64,000 bases of DNA from assembly GCA_016758965.1 (NCBI GenBank), contig JAEPRB010000217.1:1-64000 (forward strand). Reading direction: 5' to 3'. Source of the stretch: Circinella minor. Taxonomy: Eukaryota; Mucoromycota; Mucoromycetes; Mucorales; Lichtheimiaceae. Below the pieces are notes generated by a model. The model was not told the DNA's origin. It ran no database searches and saw only the letters and a list, made by a program, of their open reading frames with translations. Numbering within the stretch: the stretch's first letter is position 1; each line of letters begins with the position of its first letter. The position numbers were made by a program, and so were the translations under genes. This document shows, one piece after another, positions 44,120 through 56,206 of the stretch.

Positions 44120-45601
44120 ATGCTTTTTTGGTTTATTATTATTACAGTATTAAGTCTGTTTTGCCAAGCACAAGACACGACAAGCTATCCAAGTGTTGTA
44201 CCTACTTGTAAATCAAACGATACATCCTTAATACAATCTGGTACAAAATTACGAGTGGCTGTTATATCACATTATTCGATCGTTGCGACATTTTTTTCTA
44301 ACCCTGAAGCAGCTGCTCGAGAAGCTGCTTCATTACTCAATATGGATCTTGAATGGGATCGTCATGTGGTCAGTTCCTCTGCAAAAATGAAGGAAGATAT
44401 TCAAAATGCGTTAGATAGTGTAAGTTCTACTTTTTTTCATTATATTTTTTAGCTTCTGTTTTATTTGTCTATCATAGTACGATTATTTTAATGTTTTTCG
44501 GTTTCTACTTTTATTTTAACTTGTTAGGGTGTTGATGGTATGATCGTTTCAATACCCAATCAAGAAATATATGAAACAGTCAAAGAAGCTACCAAGACGG
44601 GTATACCAATTATTGTATTTAACACTGGCATGGAATATGCTCAAAAGCTTGGTCTTATGCGTGTACTACAATCTGACAAAAAATCGGCAGAAACGATGGC
44701 AAATGAATTAAAACGCAGAAATTATACGAGACCCCTGGCAGTACAAATCACATCCAGTAGGGACCTTGATGAGAAAACATTCAGTACTCGAGCAAATGGA
44801 ATCAGCCAATATTTGGGTCGGCCTATTGACATATTGTCCGTGACTAATGATTTTGAGAAGGCACTAATTGAAGTTGAGAAAACATTTTCATCCGGCTCGT
44901 ATGATTCGATTATTTCTTTGGGAGGTTTGGTAACTATTTTTTCATAATAATAACATAATATTACATAAGGACAAACTTTTGTTCTCATTCTTCTATTTAC
45001 ATATAACTATTTCTTGTGTTAAATTGTAGGCCGGAGTTGATTTAATTACTGCCGCTTCACTTAATATTCATAAAAGATCCCCGGATCGCCGATTAACTGT
45101 GGCATTTTATGATGCAGGTAGTAAAAGGAACATGTCAGATATTTTTAATTCATTTCCTGAAGCTTTTGGTATAAGTCAATTACCTTATTATCAAGCATCT
45201 TTACCGGTGTTTATGATGTATATACAGGTAAGTTAATTACTACAAGGAGTGTATCGATAAAGTAAAAAAAAAAAAAAAAAAAAAACAGAAAAAAACAGAA
45301 AAAATGGATGTATTATAAATTAATAAAAAGAAATATGGGTTTTGCTTCGTATAGCTTACTACCGGCTATTCTCCTTTTATCAACAAAACAGTTAATACTG
45401 GTCCGAATTTAGTTACCAAGGAAACTTATTCTGAATATGTCTATGGAGACGGAAATAGTATTATTCCTGGCGAAGATCTTGGAGCTAATATTGGTGTTGT
45501 TGTTATTAATTCAGAAGGAGATACATATCAATCAGGCATTATGGCTGGTATATATGATCTTGCAGGCAAATTAAATTGGACTGTTACACTTGCAAAAGAG
45601 G

Positions 45602-45641
<40 letters not shown>

Positions 45642-48600
45642 TATAAACATTTAAAACCATACGTAATATACTGATGATAGATAACAACCCTGTTTTTAAT
45701 TTAAGGATGGATTGGTTGGAAATTCCAGTGCTCTTAAGCAACACGTCAAGGCACTTGTCGATGGAGGAGTTCATGGACTTATACTACAATCGAGTGATCC
45801 CACTCTTCTCAATTATACAGTAAGATTGACAGACAGTCATAATGTACCTTTGGCAGTGATTGGTACCTTTTGGGAAAGCTTGGATTTGGGCCAATATAAG
45901 AATAACTCAAAGTAAGTACTCTTTCATTTTAGTTTTATGCTACTAATCAATTAATTAAAATCATAAAAGTAAATAATTTAATATATACTATTCGTCAATG
46001 TATTTGAAAGGAGTCAACAAAGCATAAATATTATTACCGATTCTAAAGCACTTGCATCATCTGTTGCTGAAAAACTAGTTTTGGATAAATTCAAGAAGCC
46101 TGTATGTTTTAGTGCTCATACTTCATGGAAATATAGTAGACTCTGTACAAGAATATATATGGCGTATAAACACCAATTAGGAAATGCGACTGATATTCCT
46201 CCCATAAACGATTTTCAACACTCAATAAATTTATCTACTGTTAAAAGTATGGAAAACGATTTTGAAAAGACGCTTTCTTCATTACGACATCGAGGGTATG
46301 ATCCGGATGTATATATTGCTCTATCTCAAAATGTATTTGGTGCAATCAACTATGTAAGTCTTGTCAATTTATTGAAGCAGGGAGGGGGAGAAGGCTATTA
46401 TACTTGAGAAAAGTTATTCATCCAAAGGTAAACACTCTATATATTATTATCCAATAATTTTTTTAGCGTATATTACGAGGATTAATGAGTACTGATACAC
46501 CAATTTATTCAGCTGTCAGTCAATATGATCAATTTCATGCTTTTTTGAATGGTCACTTAAGTCGTGTATGGTAAGTATAAATTGGGCAAATGGATTAAGT
46601 CGAATAAATCTTCCTCAGAAATTAGATAATAAAATGTATTTTTTTTTTCTTTTAAAATTTCTATATAGGCATTATAACACATATGCAAATGGGTTTTTTG
46701 CATTACTAAATATTTTATTATCCAAAACCACTCCATACCTCGCATGGCAAGGAGAAGGTTTAGCAGTACCAGAAGTAACAAATATATGCTCTCCTGGTGA
46801 ATACTATGTCGAACTATCTGAAGCACTCTACTGTGTATTTAAACCTTCTGGTGTAACAAGTCTGTCATTCCGATGTTTACCTTGCCCAGAAGGTACCTAT
46901 TCTTCCAAACCAGACCAACCTCAGTGTCTAAAATGTCCCTATGGTACTTTCTCAGCCCAAGGATCGACCAGCTGTATTTCATGTTCTGAAAATAGCAATA
47001 ATGATTCACAACTCCATTCGCAATGTATAGCATATGAGCGTGATCAAGCTGCAAAGCGTCGGAAAATATATGTTGGAGTATTTGTACCTGTAGGTATTCT
47101 CGTTGTTGGAGGCATTGTTGGATTTCTAGTTTGGCAAGGCTGGTGGAAGCGTAAAAAGTGGTTTTCTAATGCACCGGCCGAATCGACATGGTTACTGTCA
47201 TTTGATGAGTTGATGCGACCACCCATGCAACATATGTCCTCTTTTCAAACACCCAGCTCTTTAGGAAATACATCACCTGTTTTGACCACGCCAGATGCAC
47301 CATTATTGGGTACAGGAGGTAGTAATAATGATCTATCAAATTCAACACCAGAAACTATGTCACCACAAACAGATGCAGTACGTACACCAGAGCTTATCAA
47401 TACTGGACGACCAATTCCTATAATATTAGCGGGGAGAACCCAACGAACTATTTCAGATTTTCATGTTAACAGTAGTAGTAATGAGGAAGGGGAAGGCAAT
47501 AGACAACGTTCCCATAGTGATACACCAGTTGCTCGAGATTATTTCAGGCTGGCCACTGTACATAACACATCCAAGTATGTTTATCAATTTAATTTAATTA
47601 AAGAAAAAATTACTTACTATAAGCCATGTACTGTTGCTATATTGTTTCTAGTCTGCTATATTATTCGGAAAAAGAATACAAGGGATTGATACGAGCCGTA
47701 GGTTTTCAGTAAGTGCTTTTTTTGTTTCCCTTGTAAATATGTATACTTGTTTATTATTTTATCGCCTTTCTCTATACTCAACTATATTTTATATTAGTCG
47801 AAATTTACCAGTCTTTGTCAAACAGATTGGGTTCCGACGGGTTCATCTTAATCAAACAGCATATCATGAAATTTCATTGATGAAGGTGGCAAGACATCCT
47901 AAACTGGTGGAATTTATTGGGATATGCATTGAACCTCAAAGCACATTCATCGTTGAAGGTATATATTATTTGAAAACGTTTGCTGTATAGTTGACTTTCC
48001 TGACCCAATTCAAATACTGATATGGTATAATAAAAATAAATGCTCTGTAGAATATTGCAGTAAAGGAACATTATACGATGTATTGAAGAACCCGGATCTT
48101 GACCTTACATGGATCTTTCGGTTTTCTTTAATCAATGATTTAGTTGCAGGTCTCGAATTTTTACATCGGTCCAAATTTTTATTTCACGGGTGTTTGACAT
48201 CTCAAGCGTGTGTTATTACTGGTCGATGGGAATTGAAAATAACAGATTATGGTCTTTATAAGGTTCGAGAAAGTCAATATGATCCGGTAATAGTTTCATC
48301 TCTTTTAAAACGCTATCCAAAAGTGCATCATCGTACAAGCGTCCCTACATCTATGGCAAGAGGACCTTCTTCTATTACTGGGGATTATGATTCACCTATG
48401 CATATTGTACCACATTATGAAAATTTGTTATGGCTAGCACCAGAATCGCTATTACGCACATCATTTGATGTCTGGGTTACATATCCAAGTAAAAAATCAG
48501 ACATATACAGGTAATTTTTTTTTTTTCATTTAAAATATTATTTATATTACCCACCAGAAAAGATTAACTTTAGTTACTAAAAAAAAAAAAATGTAGTCTT

Positions 48601-51600
48601 GGAATTATCATGAATGAAATTGTTACTCGTGCTCAACCGTATAAAAAAGAACTAACAGAATGTGGCGAGTCAAATTATGAGGCAGTATTTGATCGCATCA
48701 AAACAGATCAACTTGTACCAGATATGTTGTCTTCTGACCAAGATATATATGTCGGTTCTGTGAATGAGATTATAATAGCATGTTGGAGACGAGAAGCAGC
48801 AAATAGACCTGCTATTGGTCAGGTGAAAGTAAGTAGTGGATTTATTTTGTGTTAGGATAAACATAAGAATAAAACACAAGCATTACTAATACTCTTTTTT
48901 TTTATTGAAGAATAAAATAAAAACTATTGATCCACATATTACGGGCTCGGATAATGTTGTCGATAATTTGGCATTACTGGTATGTTTTCTTTTTATTTTT
49001 AATTTAGCATGTGTATATTTGATGGGTATCAACAGGACTCACTGACTATTTTATCATTATTCTTTAACTCAGCTGGAAAGATACGCAAATGATATGGAAA
49101 ATTTAGTACGTAAACGTACAGCAAATCTTCAGCAACGCACAATAGAATTGGAAGAAGAGCGTGCAAGGACAGATAATTTACTTAAAGGTAACCTAACCTA
49201 TTTGAAAAAAGAAAAAAAAAATTGACAGATACTCTCAACTTTTGTATATTTGCTAAATAACAATGAATGTATATATATAGATCTCAAGGAAGCTAAAGAA
49301 GTAGCTGAAGCTGCAGCAGCTTCAAAACAAAACTTCTTAGCAAATATGTCTCATGGTGAATACTCTCTCTTTTTTTTTTTTTTTTTTTACTCATGGAATA
49401 TTAGTTTTTGTTTTGTTATTAATTTTTTTAATAAGAAATTCGGACTCCAATGAATGCCGTTATTGGTATGTCACGTATTTTGATGGAAAGTAACCTGCCA
49501 GCGGAACTGCATGATTGTGCCGAAACAATTGAATCTTCGGGTGTGTATGATTATATTTACACTAAACATGACTTCTCTATTCCAAGGAAAAATCCTTACT
49601 AATATTATAATTGAAACGTTATTATAACATTAGGTAATCATCTAATGACAATTATTGATGATATACTTGACTATTCAAAAATTGATTCAGGAAAACTCAC
49701 ATTAGAACATAGACGCATGGATTTGGTATGGGGGTTTTTTTTTTCTTTTTTTTCTTAAAGAATTACTGAAGTGATAGTACATTATATACTCATTTATATT
49801 ATAGATATTTGTATTTGAAAGCGCTATCAAACTTATAGCACCGAATTATTTGGACAAAGGTGTCGTATTATGGAATACTTTTGAGCCTGATGTAGCGACT
49901 GCAGTTTATGGGGATGTAGTGAGGCTTCGTCAAATATTGCTTAATATGTAAGTTATATATTTATTTAAAAAAAAATGAAAATACTAACTTGCATTTATTA
50001 CTCTTATGCGGTTCCAATGAATACTTAGACTTTCTAATGCTCTTAAGTTTACAAAAGAAGGGTATGTGGCTATCCATGTTTCATGTATTGGATCTGCACC
50101 TTCCACTCCGGCTCTGATTCCTGATGGAGATAGTAATAATGATAACAATAACGAGGAAAAGAAAGGGCTTTTATCAGATAACAGCGTTGATCAAGAAAAT
50201 ATAGACGCTCGAACAGAAGGTCTATTAATTTCAATACGCGATACTGGTATTGGAATTCAAAAAGAAAAAGCAGATAAATTATTTCAAACGTTTTCTCAAG
50301 TTGATGCGTCTACAACACGTAACTTTGGTGGAACCGGTCTTGGGCTGGCAATTAGCCGGAAGTTGAGTCGAATGATGGGTGGTGACATGGTAATAATTGC
50401 TATTCTGTTACTAGCTTTATTAACACAAAATGTACTATTATGGTAGTAATAACAGTTTGATTAATAATAAAATTAATCATTAGTGGTTTGAATCCAATTA
50501 TGGTCATGGGTCAACATTCTATGTCACTGTCAAATTACAAAAGCAAGCGGACAGTCCTACGTATGGCTCAATCAACTGTATTGATGAAATTGCCGAATTA
50601 TGTCACTCCTGTGTAATCGTTGCTAATAATAAGTATTCGCGACAAGGGTGGGTTGAGCTCTTTAAATCAATACGAGTGTCTAATATAAAAGTTTTACCTT
50701 TTGCCGAAGCCGAAAAGATGTTGAAAATACTACACGAAGATGAAGAAGAAGTTTCCTTATTAGTTATCGACGAGGAATTTGAAATGGTGGAAGAAATGGG
50801 TACAATACCAACCACATCTCAAGCCGTTCTATACACTCTACAAGATAGGATTCCATCCATACGGTCTATACCCACTCTGTGCATGAGAGATATGCGCAAT
50901 CAACGTCAGGAACGTTTATCTGACTATGAGCAACAACATGTACTACCACAGCTATCCAAACATGCCCCAACACAACAAGAAGATTCACCTACGCCTCGTC
51001 TAGAACGCAAAAATCCGTTCGAAGAATTAGCTACCACTTCATCGGAGCAACGTATCTTATATATTGTCAAACCAGTAAAAGCCACTAAACTTTTGATGGC
51101 TTTATTAAAGCTTTTAAGACCATCCGAAGCAGGGTCAGATAATGATAATAAGTCCACAGAAAACGAAGCACAGCAACAAACAACGGGAAAGACACTGTCC
51201 GGAGGAGCATCTATTGCTAATGGCGATCCATCCCGACCTTTCAAGCGTACAAAAAGTGATGGTAAACGAATAAAAGGGCGCGGACGATCCAACACGATAG
51301 TGAGCACTCGTTCAGCTAGTTCAACCACATCTTCTGGTAGACCGTTTAGCGAAATTACCGGTTCAGTTAGGTCATTACTTGTTGATGATAATCCTGTCAA
51401 TCAAAAGGTTGTTATCCGTATGCTTTCACGACTCGGGGTTCACCCTCAAATTGCACAAAATGGCAAAGAGGTTAGATTACTTTACTATTGTTGCTGAGTA
51501 AGCTCAAACAGAAAACTAATTTGAAAATTTTGGAACCGTCTCGTTGATATAGGCATGTGATATGGTACGTAAATCAAAAGAGGGAGGAACGGAAGAATCA

Positions 51601-52097
51601 ATTGATCTTATTTTTATGGATATATGGATGCCTGAAATGAATGGTTTTGAAGCGTCTGAATATATTCGGTCGAATCTTTCGGATTCACCAGTTCATCCAT
51701 ATATTATTGCCATGACCGCTTGTGTTATGCCTGGTGATAAAGAGAAATGCCTAAATGCAGGTTTGTTTGAGTTTATTTTTAATTACCATTATTATTATTT
51801 ATAAAAGAAAAAAAAGTACGTCATTATGATACTCACAAAATAATTATAGGTATGAATGGTTATGTGAGTAAACCAGTACGAAAAGATGAATTGGAAGCTT
51901 CCCTTCACACTTATACCCAAGTTATTGTGAGTGAATCAGCTGAAGACTCTAACACGGAATCCCCTTCAATTGAAGAAACCAGCAAAAGTTCATTCTCTTC
52001 TCAAGAAGAAGAATATGTAAAACCGTTACCATCTGTTACAGTAACAGTGGAAAATAACAAACATCAGTTTCATAATAATACAAATAACAGTATATAA
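44120..52097 (+). CDS. Receptor hybrid histidine kinase with guanylyl-cyclase-receptor-like pseudokinase
   Basis: 22 exons: 44120..44419, 44528..44929, 45030..45227, 45355..45600, 45706..45911, 46011..46353, 46467..46570, 46669..47574, 47652..47708, 47798..47958, 48051..48510, 48597..48828, 48911..48979, 49073..49187, 49281..49355, 49436..49540, 49634..49725, 49805..49947, 50029..50389, 50484..51470, 51553..51760, 51850..52097; about 2005 aa, all phases close. Order: signal peptide (1-18); two type-1 periplasmic-binding-like modules (about 40-340 and 345-630; [21 protein letters not shown]); Cys-rich GCC2/GCC3-like module (about 639-719); one membrane span (733-755); pseudokinase (about 770-1205) with HGCL (1020-1023) for HRDL and ITDYGL (1038-1043); signalling helix (about 1206-1266; [16 protein letters not shown]); H-box NMSHEIRTPMN with His1291; ATPase boxes ([28 protein letters not shown]); degenerate receiver (about 1560-1720); intact receiver with D1826/D1827, phospho-acceptor Asp1877 and Lys1931. 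Predicted: plasma-membrane sensor feeding a His-Asp phosphorelay. Confidence 0.92.
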
Positions 52098-54846: not shown

Positions 54847-56105
54847 GGTTTTATGAATTTATGGATGGTGCAGAAGGTGTGGTTGGTGGTTCTATCCATT
54901 GAAGTAATGGCTGACCAAAATTATTTATTGGTGGTGATGGTGTAGTATATTGTTCGGGTCTGCAAGTACGATGTAGTTGATGGAGGATGAAACACAGTTT
55001 TGGCCAAACAATTTTGAGGTATAACCGTTTGTTGAATGATGCGGGAGGTGATTTTGGGAGTCGATTGAGGACATAGGAGATTGGGTCGTTGATAGTGGTT
55101 GAAATAGACAAAAAGGTGTGTACGTGGTGGCAAGAGAGTAGATGTTGTTTTGATAGTCTGGTGGTTTGGTGACAATTAGGACAGGGTTGTTGATGGTGAT
55201 TGTTGATCCAGCCAAGTCTATAAAAGATGCATAGAATACGTTCCTGGGTGTCATAGGCAACCAGAGAATTGGATCAATTCCCAGTTGCTTTCGGCACTGA
55301 TTTAAAAGTTTACTGTTTTTGCGTTGGCAACGTTGTGTATATGTTGTTTTAAGATGTTGTTTAGTTGCATTTTTAATATCTTTTGTGGTTATTGTTGCAA
55401 TACTATCTTCTGTTGTTGTTGTTGCTGTGATTGATTTCCAAATAGTATTGTTTCGAACAAATGTATTCCAAGCACGAAGTCCTTTGGTTTATCTGGCACG
55501 TGGAAGTAAAGTCGGAAATAAGGCGTCATCTGGCATATTATATGAACGAAGTATGAATTTGGCTTGTAGTGTAGTAACACGATCAGTCATATATTCAAGA
55601 TTTGCAAGGTGATGTATAACAGCCATGGATTGATTAGTCTTGGTACCATATATTTTTTGGAGGCAAGTGTTTTGTGATTCTTGAAGTATTTTGCAATCTT
55701 CGTGAGTGAATTTAGTGATAGCAAGGCCATACTCCATTTTGGGTCTGATGAACTGGCGGTAAAGCCTGGTACTGAGCAATTTACCAAGACATCTTGCCCT
55801 GACACCAATTGAGGCCAATATATTCATTGCTGATACCGTTGCAGTTGTATTATGATCAATTAAAGCAGCGTTATTGATACAGCCGTGTTGATTAAAAGGT
55901 ACACCTAGATACGTAAATGTTGTTGCTCGTTGTATGTTGATATGGTAGAGTTGTGGTAGTTGAGTTGGTAATGGGTCAGTTGCCGACATATATATACATT
56001 TATTAGGGTTCCATTGATAACCTAATTCTTTGCTATGATCCTCGCATGCTTGTAATAATAATGGTATCGTATCCCAAGTACCGATAAGTGCCACATCATC
56101 TGCAT
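54551..56105 (-). mobile_element. 5'-truncated, decayed non-LTR retrotransposon (LINE)
   Basis: Minus strand. The reading frame enters directly from the pentanucleotide repeat into YADDVALIG, the catalytic YADD box of reverse transcriptase, so everything upstream of the active site is missing. It continues through CIYMSATDPL, FTYLGVPFNQHG (the thumb-side FxYLG motif of LINE reverse transcriptases) and ARCLGKLLSTRLYRQFIRPK to PRAR, then a TAA at about 55489. Beyond the stop the same frame resumes (TKGLRAWNTFVRNNTIWKS), and near 55230 it shifts frame to LCIFYRLGWINNHHQQ and CPNCHQTTRLSKQHLLSCHH, a C-terminal CCHH-type zinc motif, ending about 54851. About 300 bp of 3' region follow, with a T27 run near 54820-54846. 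One stop and at least one frameshift mean this copy is dead. Confidence 0.85.
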
Positions 56106-56151
56106 ACAATACAATACAATACAATACAATACAATATAATATAATGTAATG
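56106..56151. repeat. Pentanucleotide microsatellite (ACAAT)6 with degenerate flank
   Basis: Six exact units followed by variant units (ATAAT, GTAAT). It abuts the truncated 5' end of the LINE and is the same repeat, in the same orientation, as the tract at the LINE's 3' end. Confidence 0.95.
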
Positions 56152-56206
56152 TATTTTTAGCATATAATATATATATAATAAAAACAGTTTTTATATACTT
56201 TCATAC

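Follow-up and report, generated by a model that had tools for sequence, protein, structure and literature searches.

A fungal receptor hybrid histidine kinase with a pseudokinase and signalling helix of the receptor guanylyl cyclase type

Overall architecture

A single gene of the Mucorales fungus Circinella minor is predicted to encode a single-pass receptor hybrid histidine kinase (HHK) in which a pseudokinase and signalling helix (S-helix) of the receptor guanylyl cyclase (RGC) type lie between a bacterial-type sugar-binding sensor and the histidine-kinase output, and this receptor probably works in the manner proposed below. The gene lies in the window, the 64,000-nucleotide stretch of contig JAEPRB010000217.1 (assembly GCA_016758965.1) that was analysed. 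Its domain order, the junction region, the kinship of the pseudokinase, the loss of kinase residues and the conservation of these features are all established at the level of sequence. By this measure the protein is, from its N-terminus, a signal peptide, two periplasmic-binding protein (PBP) type 1 modules, a nine-cysteine module, one transmembrane span, the pseudokinase, the S-helix, HisKA, HATPase, a degenerate receiver and a canonical receiver.

44120..52097, + strand: whole gene, 22 exons, 2005 aa (exon model rebuilt from DNA; orthologue alignment)
44120..44173, + strand: signal peptide, residues 1-18, approximate (hydrophobic N-terminus)
44237..45444, + strand: PBP-A, first PBP-type-1 module, CUT2 sugar-binding type, residues ~40-330, exons 1-4
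45472..46759, + strand: PBP-B, second, degenerate PBP-type-1-like module, residues ~340-630, exons 4-8 (Peripla_BP_4; P0118 model)
46787..47026, + strand: nine-cysteine module, residues 640-719 (NCD3G and Ephrin_rec_like matches; Cys conservation)
47066..47137, + strand: transmembrane span, residues ~733-756 (strongest hydropathy peak, 2.53)
47662..48940, + strand: pseudokinase, RGC kinase-homology-domain type, residues 906-1215, exons 9-13 (PDB and protein searches, tree, catalytic residues)
48947..49285, + strand: S-helix, RGC type with one extra heptad, residues 1218-1268, exons 13-15 (helix comparisons, spacing counts)
49188..49280, + strand: phase 1 intron at codon 1267, adjoining the junction of RGC-like and HK-like homology (exon model; also in the C230 paralogue)
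49307..49692, + strand: HisKA, residues 1276-1346, phospho-acceptor His1291 at 49352-49354 (PF00512, 1.1e-20)
49871..50543, + strand: HATPase_c, residues ~1380-1545 (PF02518, 5.1e-26)
50586..51122, + strand: degenerate receiver-like domain, residues ~1560-1738 (element order in the P0001 model)
51354..51914, + strand: canonical receiver, residues 1816-1945, phospho-acceptor Asp1877 at 51619-51621 (PF00072, 1.4e-22; LVDDN/FMDIW/SKP)

Gene structure and a fungal family

The rebuilt 22-exon model has no internal stop across its 2005 codons and 21 GT-AG introns of 77-127 bp each. The single gene described by a first-pass annotation of this DNA stands. Alignment with the orthologues P0002, P0004 and P0005 is ungapped near 18 of the 21 exon junctions in all three and near 20 in at least one. 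The exception, the junction at residue 450, falls within a loop where each of the three alignments has a small gap; in addition P0002 lacks about 15 residues ahead of junction 565 and P0004 is gapped after 1127. Identity with P0002 reaches 1405 residues of the 1981 aligned, so that the gene is real rather than a product of chance.

At least 123 database proteins, from Mucorales and Mortierellomycota by genus, share the core, a lower bound set by the length window for candidates, a word filter and the use of the best 120 matches. The same genome holds a second copy, a paralogue on contig C230 with the same domain order, and with these relatives the reading of the gene as a lone oddity was rejected.

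It is scarcely credible that the model joins two genes, or reflects an annotation artefact, with a pseudokinase receptor upstream and an unrelated hybrid histidine kinase downstream. Such a reading could draw on the deposited C. minor model, P0001, whose start falls inside an intron and from which the outer half is missing, and on the models of P0118 and P0121, which lack the kinase end. Against it, both the helix and HisKA were matched in 122 of the 123 family proteins, the paralogue keeps the order, and the spacing from helix to H-box is fixed in 121 of 123 scored rows (see below). At the protein level, then, the first-pass annotation's own test for two genes came out in favour of one, with single proteins crossing the join between pseudokinase and H-box in many species.

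Histidine-kinase output

HisKA with its His, HATPase_c and a C-terminal receiver with its Asp together make the output a hybrid histidine kinase, and in the second receiver the acidic pair, the Asp and the Lys are all present. A full hybrid kinase with receivers had been claimed initially; HisKA, HATPase_c and the second receiver bear this out, but the first receiver is degenerate and a Pfam profile search with residues 1560-1738 gave no match. In the P0001 model this domain (P0001 residues 661-760 and 811-840) has alternating alpha/beta elements in receiver-like order, with pLDDT mostly 76-93. No guanylate cyclase domain (PF00211) was matched in the window protein at E≤0.1. A profile search of the genome gave two Hpt matches and one Guanylate_cyc match (on contig C36), none of them at this gene.

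The pseudokinase and its kinship to receptor guanylyl cyclases

Assignment of the pseudokinase to the RGC kinase-homology-domain (KHD) type is supported by sequence searches and by a tree. Among the best 60 of 1256 PDB matches to the pseudokinase and helix, ANPR1 scored 148.6 bits, GC-C 73.4 and the best other kinase, CTR1, 62.0, giving a lead over the next kinase family of 86 bits for ANPR1 and just 11 for GC-C; the corresponding scores with a family profile were 234, 150 and 95 bits. A protein search returned 25 of 5514 candidates at E≤1e-3, namely 16 fungal family members, four animal RGC-type proteins (4.8e-36 to 2.7e-19) and five other kinases (from 4.9e-11), in that order, which puts about 25 orders of E-value between the animal RGCs and the other kinases. 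The fourth animal match (P0129, 2.7e-19) is a 774-aa model without a cyclase. In the tree, support for fungal and RGC sequences against TK/TKL kinases is 100/99, and for the fungal clade 100/100, which agrees with the grouping for which the first-pass annotation had suggested a phylogeny. The tree holds 21 of the 123 family proteins plus the window protein, six RGCs and seven TK/TKL kinases, with EGFR the sole TK; 23 family proteins had been chosen and P0078 and P0121 omitted before building, P0130 and P0134 (two kinase copies each) were trimmed to one copy, and columns less than 60% filled were removed.

We consider it very unlikely that an ordinary pseudokinase of TKL type has come to look like those of RGCs by convergence, with an S-helix that arrived together with the histidine kinase. 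TKL kinases are also clear matches, as the CTR1 score illustrates, and fold comparison has no preference for RGCs, with RAF and RIPK kinases equalling GC-A in Z; S-helices, moreover, are common in histidine kinases according to a 2006 survey (PMC1592074). The ANPR1 lead, the E-value gap and the tree all argue against convergence, as does a helix that stays RGC-like to about residue 1268, unlike the six HHKs with which it was compared.

How the fungi came by an RGC-type core is a separate matter. That the core was gained from an animal by gene transfer, and not inherited from a common opisthokont ancestor, is rather doubtful. It would fit the protein searches, where no RGC-type protein of other fungi was among the matches listed, and the best tree, which leaves the animal RGCs unjoined as one clade. 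A single animal RGC clade was not rejected, however (p-AU 0.213, with six RGCs in the tree), the stem of the fungal clade, at 1.16, is long, and the family spans two lineages. An earlier study placed the multi-domain architecture of RGCs early in the evolution of eumetazoans (PMC1435932). Fungi in which this core serves a different output would either shift its origin or bring a transfer to light.

Judged from its residues, the pseudokinase is catalytically incomplete. The VAIK Lys, HRD Asp and DFG Asp occur together in none of 124 rows, six of which are gapped at one or more of the five positions counted and two of which (the window protein and P0001) are the same gene. A Lys (or Arg) at the VAIK position and the Glu of helix C are widely conserved, and the HRD/DFG acids are not retained together with the Lys.

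The S-helix and its junction with the histidine kinase

RGC-like sequence continues beyond the pseudokinase, through the S-helix, to about residue 1268, the point at which RGCs meet their cyclase, and histidine-kinase sequence follows from there. The first-pass annotation had seen the pseudokinase and helix as following those of animal RGCs, with the cyclase replaced by H-box, ATPase and receivers, and both observations hold. Residues 1218-1268 scored above all 500 shuffles against five of five RGCs (z 4.7-13.6) and none of six HHKs (z -0.9 to 1.9), whereas residues 1269-1285 scored above all shuffles against four of the six HHKs and none of the five RGCs; the split at 1268/1269 was picked after an earlier comparison had been viewed, and L005 and L006 were unused (stops in upstream codons). 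On its own, the helix matched ANPR1 in the PDB at no better than E 0.027. The chance of any of the 21 introns falling within two codons of a given point, as the intron at codon 1267 does here, is about 0.05.

The helix RT lies 12 residues from the Leu of the LL motif in five of five RGCs (ANPR1 counted by eye) and 19 in 121 of 122 fungal rows, which makes the S-helix of the fungi longer by exactly one heptad; of the 123 proteins P0118 ends earlier and was not scored, and one has Arg for Leu. A difference of exactly one coiled-coil heptad suggests that nature swapped the output enzyme and kept the helix register. The distance from the helix Tyr to the phospho-accepting His is likewise nearly constant: of 124 rows, made up of the window protein and 123 family members, one is gapped, 121 have 59 residues and the two outliers stand at 73 and 76, as expected if coiled-coil register transmits the signal. 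The AF2 monomer model is unsure at the S-helix, with pLDDT about 45-67; the AF2 models were made from input alignments of 29 proteins each.

Extracellular region and membrane span

The nearest sequences and folds to PBP-A are bacterial CUT2 sugar-binding proteins, and the module agrees with CUT2 (Peripla_BP_4) in both its PBP type 1 fold and its family sequence. The tandem PBP-like modules reported initially are recovered, the first clear by sequence and the second weak: PBP-B matches Peripla_BP_4 at E 3.9e-4, under the Pfam cut-off, and in the model of the orthologue P0118 (residues 366-653) its strands and helices alternate, with pLDDT mostly 75-95. The Cys-rich module and single membrane span are also confirmed. 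The former matches NCD3G (E 1.7e-8, 34.6 bits, short of the 38.9 cut-off) and Ephrin_rec_like (31.4 bits, above the 23.1 cut-off), and the latter is the one strong hydropathy peak apart from the signal peptide, a weak peak of 1.61 lying inside PBP-A.

Conservation was counted over 101 rows, the window protein and the 100 of 123 family proteins with a near-complete extracellular region; some match to this region is present in 116 of the 123. All nine cysteines are each kept in 95-101 rows, and in PBP-A R188 is conserved in 95 and D262 in 99. From the fold and these two positions, the ligand of PBP-A is probably a small molecule, a sugar or polyol.

An RGC-type (ANF) ectodomain was considered and rejected: a Pfam profile search gave no match to ANF_receptor (PF01094) in the window protein at E≤0.1, while the animal RGC P0127, as positive control, scored 207 bits, and a CUT2-type module is found instead. 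The guanylyl cyclase receptor chassis of the first-pass annotation therefore survives for the pseudokinase and S-helix and fails outside the membrane. A homologue search with the extracellular region alone (764-aa query, candidates of ~420-1337 aa) scored none of 7996 at E≤1e-3, a result that is uninformative because the length range excluded most full-length relatives and because P0118 and P0022, which carry the modules and lie within range, were missed too.

Comparison with known systems

The fungal protein resembles animal RGCs (ANPR1/GC-A) in its single pass, in its homologous pseudokinase and S-helix in the same order, and in a helix that runs directly into the output enzyme. It differs in having a hybrid histidine kinase as output, in the extra heptad, and in an ectodomain made of a CUT2-type PBP, a second PBP-like module and a nine-cysteine module. 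In the 2006 survey the animal receptor cyclases were the only proteins with an S-helix after a kinase-like domain, and the fungal S-helices reported were confined to Sln1-type kinases (PMC1592074).

With fungal HHKs (groups I-XIX) the protein shares HisKA, HATPase_c and a receiver with catalytic residues; in the survey text compared here, none of these groups has PBP modules, an RGC pseudokinase or an RGC S-helix. Nor did the literature searched, which included text from PMC5285503, PMC6944256, PMC8778642 and PMC8510515, yield a description of this receptor design. Group X kinases (Chk1/Mak2/Mak3) likewise join a protein-kinase domain to a hybrid histidine kinase, and are described as having S_TKc, AAA-16 and GAF ahead of HisKA (PMC9069115). 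The window protein, unlike these, has no AAA-16 or GAF in a Pfam search. A 154-aa kinase-like ORF of locus L023, which we take to be this genome's group X gene, scored 11.8 bits against the window pseudokinase (one ORF compared). Sln1-type kinases are also membrane receptors with an S-helix ahead of HisKA (PMC1592074), and the PDB entries that best match the receiver of the window protein include those of SLN1 receivers. Unlike Sln1-type kinases, which have HAMP, the window protein has a pseudokinase and no HAMP match at E≤0.1.

Bacterial sugar-sensing histidine kinases with PBP sensors include XylFII-LytS, in which XylFII is a protein separate from its kinase, and the Bacteroides hybrid systems; neither is known to have a pseudokinase. 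Class C GPCRs have an ectodomain in which a PBP-type flytrap is followed by a nine-cysteine module. The window protein has the same succession, but with one membrane span rather than seven and with its NCD3G match under the Pfam cut-off.

Proposed mechanism

In the mechanism that we propose, PBP-A would bind a small molecule outside the cell, probably a sugar or a polyol, and the resulting change would travel through the nine-cysteine module and membrane span to pseudokinases that are presumably paired. Acting as an allosteric brake or clamp, the pseudokinases may alter the coiled-coil packing of the S-helix and so control autophosphorylation of His1291 in one direction or the other, after which phosphate would pass from His1291 to Asp1877 and on to a putative HPt/response-regulator relay. 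The ligand, activity and sign of output given here are thus our inference. Earlier work on RGCs casts their KHD as a negative element (PMC1435932), and sees in the S-helix a switch common to RGCs and histidine kinases (PMC1592074).

An unlikely alternative is that the pseudokinase is a passive scaffold or a sensor of ATP level, and that the signal reaches the histidine kinase mainly through rearrangement of the S-helix dimer. Retention of the VAIK Lys and helix-C Glu without the HRD/DFG acids jointly fits nucleotide binding without catalysis, and other histidine kinases use S-helices without any pseudokinase, so that control need not lie with this domain. By sequence this alternative is inseparable from the allosteric brake; on the other side, deletion of the KHD is reported to activate the RGC enzyme (PMC1435932).

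The KHD and S-helix are likely to form a portable, output-independent allosteric module that is not tied to animal cyclases and that in fungi drives a histidine kinase. The fungal receptors would allow study of the control that an RGC pseudokinase exerts over a dimeric enzyme, because the output is readable as His/Asp phosphorylation in yeast, and they supply candidates for receptors of nutrients or sugars in Mucoromycota fungi. The domain assignments also bear on database records that name such proteins guanylate cyclases; some records of the family already carry the software labels 'RGC' or 'guanylate cyclase'.

Gene model and orthologues

The gene modelled from the raw sequence contains 21 GT-AG introns and lies on contig 217, one of 619 in the 46.6 Mb source genome:

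44120-52097, forward strand: predicted receptor hybrid histidine kinase, 2005 residues in 22 exons

The closest match to it in the database is a Circinella minor protein, P0001, at 97% over the region and 100% across 96% of the shorter region; this is evidently the same gene. The deposited P0001 model (INT45_007832, 1104 residues) is without approximately the first 920 residues, and hence the outer half, because it begins with translation of the intron at 47709-47797. The window protein is identical to its orthologues from Phascolomyces (P0002), Zychaea (P0004) and Lichtheimia (P0005) at 1405 of 1981, 1296 of 1949 and 967 of 1942 residues, respectively. Exon junctions are gap-free at 20 of the 21 positions in at least one of these orthologues and at 18 in all three, and the predicted 22-exon model agrees with them. 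The domains read here in the first-pass annotation are confirmed. Conservation is highest in HisKA (97% in each) and the S-helix (95, 90 and 85% in P0002, P0004 and P0005), followed by the canonical receiver (92, 84 and 79%), with 36-67% in the outer modules. The first receiver (50586-51122) is degenerate by sequence and receiver-like in the AF2 structure model, and may be a regulatory pseudo-receiver.

A fungal receptor family

Two database searches (118 + 5) gave a family of at least 123 fungal proteins, 30 from Mucorales and 93 from Mortierellomycota by our own classification of genus names; two further listed matches are generic hybrid kinases (1.7e-38 and 6.4e-37). The pseudokinase of the window protein matched all 123, the helix and HisKA 122 and the extracellular domain 116. 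Another family member in this genome is encoded on the minus strand of contig C230 (L022, 33500-43400), with exons ordered as in the window gene. Three listed family proteins (P0031, P0040 and P0042) all come from Podila epigama, which suggests receptor expansion in Mortierellomycota. Annotation software had already picked up the resemblance to receptor guanylyl cyclases (RGCs), as shown by the labels it gave to P0014, P0021, P0048, P0115 and P0118 ('RGC/RGC protein kinase', 'guanylate cyclase' and the like). An expansion of 'guanylate cyclase family 8.A.85' reported in Glomeromycotina may reflect kinase-like similarity instead of cyclases (PMC8778642).

Kinship of the pseudokinase

Among the best 60 of 1256 matched sequences in a PDB search with the pseudokinase and helix, ANPR1 scored 148.6 bits, GC-C 73.4 and CTR1, coming next, 62.0. 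A second search used a query whose length let RGCs in but kept most full-length members of the fungal family out. Of its 5514 candidates 25 reached E 1e-3. Sixteen of them belong to the fungal family; four are RGC-type proteins of animals (4.8e-36, 3.0e-34, 1.2e-33 and 2.7e-19, the last from a model without a cyclase), and five other kinases rank below these (4.9e-11 to 1.8e-4). In a tree of 35 sequences (22 fungal, 6 RGC, 7 TK/TKL) the fungal and RGC sequences grouped against TK/TKL with support of 100/99, in favour of the kinship proposed in the first-pass annotation, and the fungal sequences formed one clade (100/100); a separate clade of the animal RGCs, absent from the best tree, was not rejected (p-AU 0.213). 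Branches are long in P0134, EGFR, GC-C, P0132 and others, and the tree is to be read with that caution.

Not one of 124 aligned sequences combines the Lys of VAIK with the Asp residues of both HRD and DFG, and in 88 the DFG Asp is replaced by Gly. The window protein keeps the Lys, the helix-C Glu and the DFG Asp; its HRD Asp is replaced by Cys and its loop Asn by Ala. Judged by its residues, the domain is a pseudokinase. The AF2 model of P0001 has a kinase fold in this region, matched as well by RAF and RIPK kinases as by GC-A.

The S-helix / histidine-kinase junction

Residues 1218-1268 resemble the S-helix of five RGCs (z 4.7 to 13.6; in every comparison all 500 shuffles scored lower) as opposed to six hybrid kinases, four from the same genome (z -0.9 to 1.9). 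Residues 1269-1285 reverse this pattern, with z of 3.9-4.9 to four of the six hybrid kinases (-0.2 and 1.5 for the other two) and -0.7 to 2.1 to RGCs; the 1268/1269 split was chosen post hoc. RGC similarity extends up to the LL motif, immediately before the RGC cyclase. The distance between the RT of the helix and the Leu of the next LL motif (LN in GC-C) is 12 residues in all five RGCs (ANPR1 counted by eye) and 19 in the window protein and 121 of 122 fungal proteins; the fungal S-helix is therefore longer by one heptad. Where RGCs carry a single RT the fungal helix has RT-ANLQQ-RT, the second RT standing at +5 in 122 of 122. Helix Tyr and phospho-His are 59 residues apart in 121 of 123 scored sequences. 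An intron at codon 1267, shared with the paralogue on C230, adjoins the junction; the chance that one of 21 introns falls so near is about 0.05, and its position is suggestive only.

Architecture and proposed mechanism

The cyclase-receptor interpretation of the first-pass annotation holds for the core, pseudokinase and S-helix, and fails for the outer domain. The protein is not an RGC by membership, but its build is RGC-like up to the join. As a hybrid histidine kinase it is of interest for having the control core of RGCs in an organism that is not an animal. The literature searched yielded no account of this architecture. Unprecedented membrane hybrid kinases are scattered across early-diverging fungi according to Herivaux 2017, which in the text consulted does not name the present architecture (PMC5285503).

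By homology with both parents, ligand would bind in PBP-A and the signal would pass the nine-Cys module and membrane span, with the pseudokinase as allosteric control and the S-helix as switch, to a phosphorelay from His1291 to Asp1877 to HPt. A study of S-helices suggests that they keep the linked domain from constitutive activity, and it found the kinase-S-helix order in animal RGCs only (PMC1592074). A negative role has been ascribed to the pseudokinase of RGCs (PMC1435932).

Genome context

A genome search gave two matches to Hpt, the expected next relay step, and one to Guanylate_cyc, on contig C36. Another hybrid kinase (L023, C2:357600-367500), which we take to resemble group X from its pre-HisKA sequence, has one kinase-like exon only distantly similar to the window pseudokinase. 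Downstream of the gene, on the minus strand at 54854-56190, open reading frames with reverse-transcriptase-like words (YADDVALIG), read by eye, are likely a decayed retroelement.
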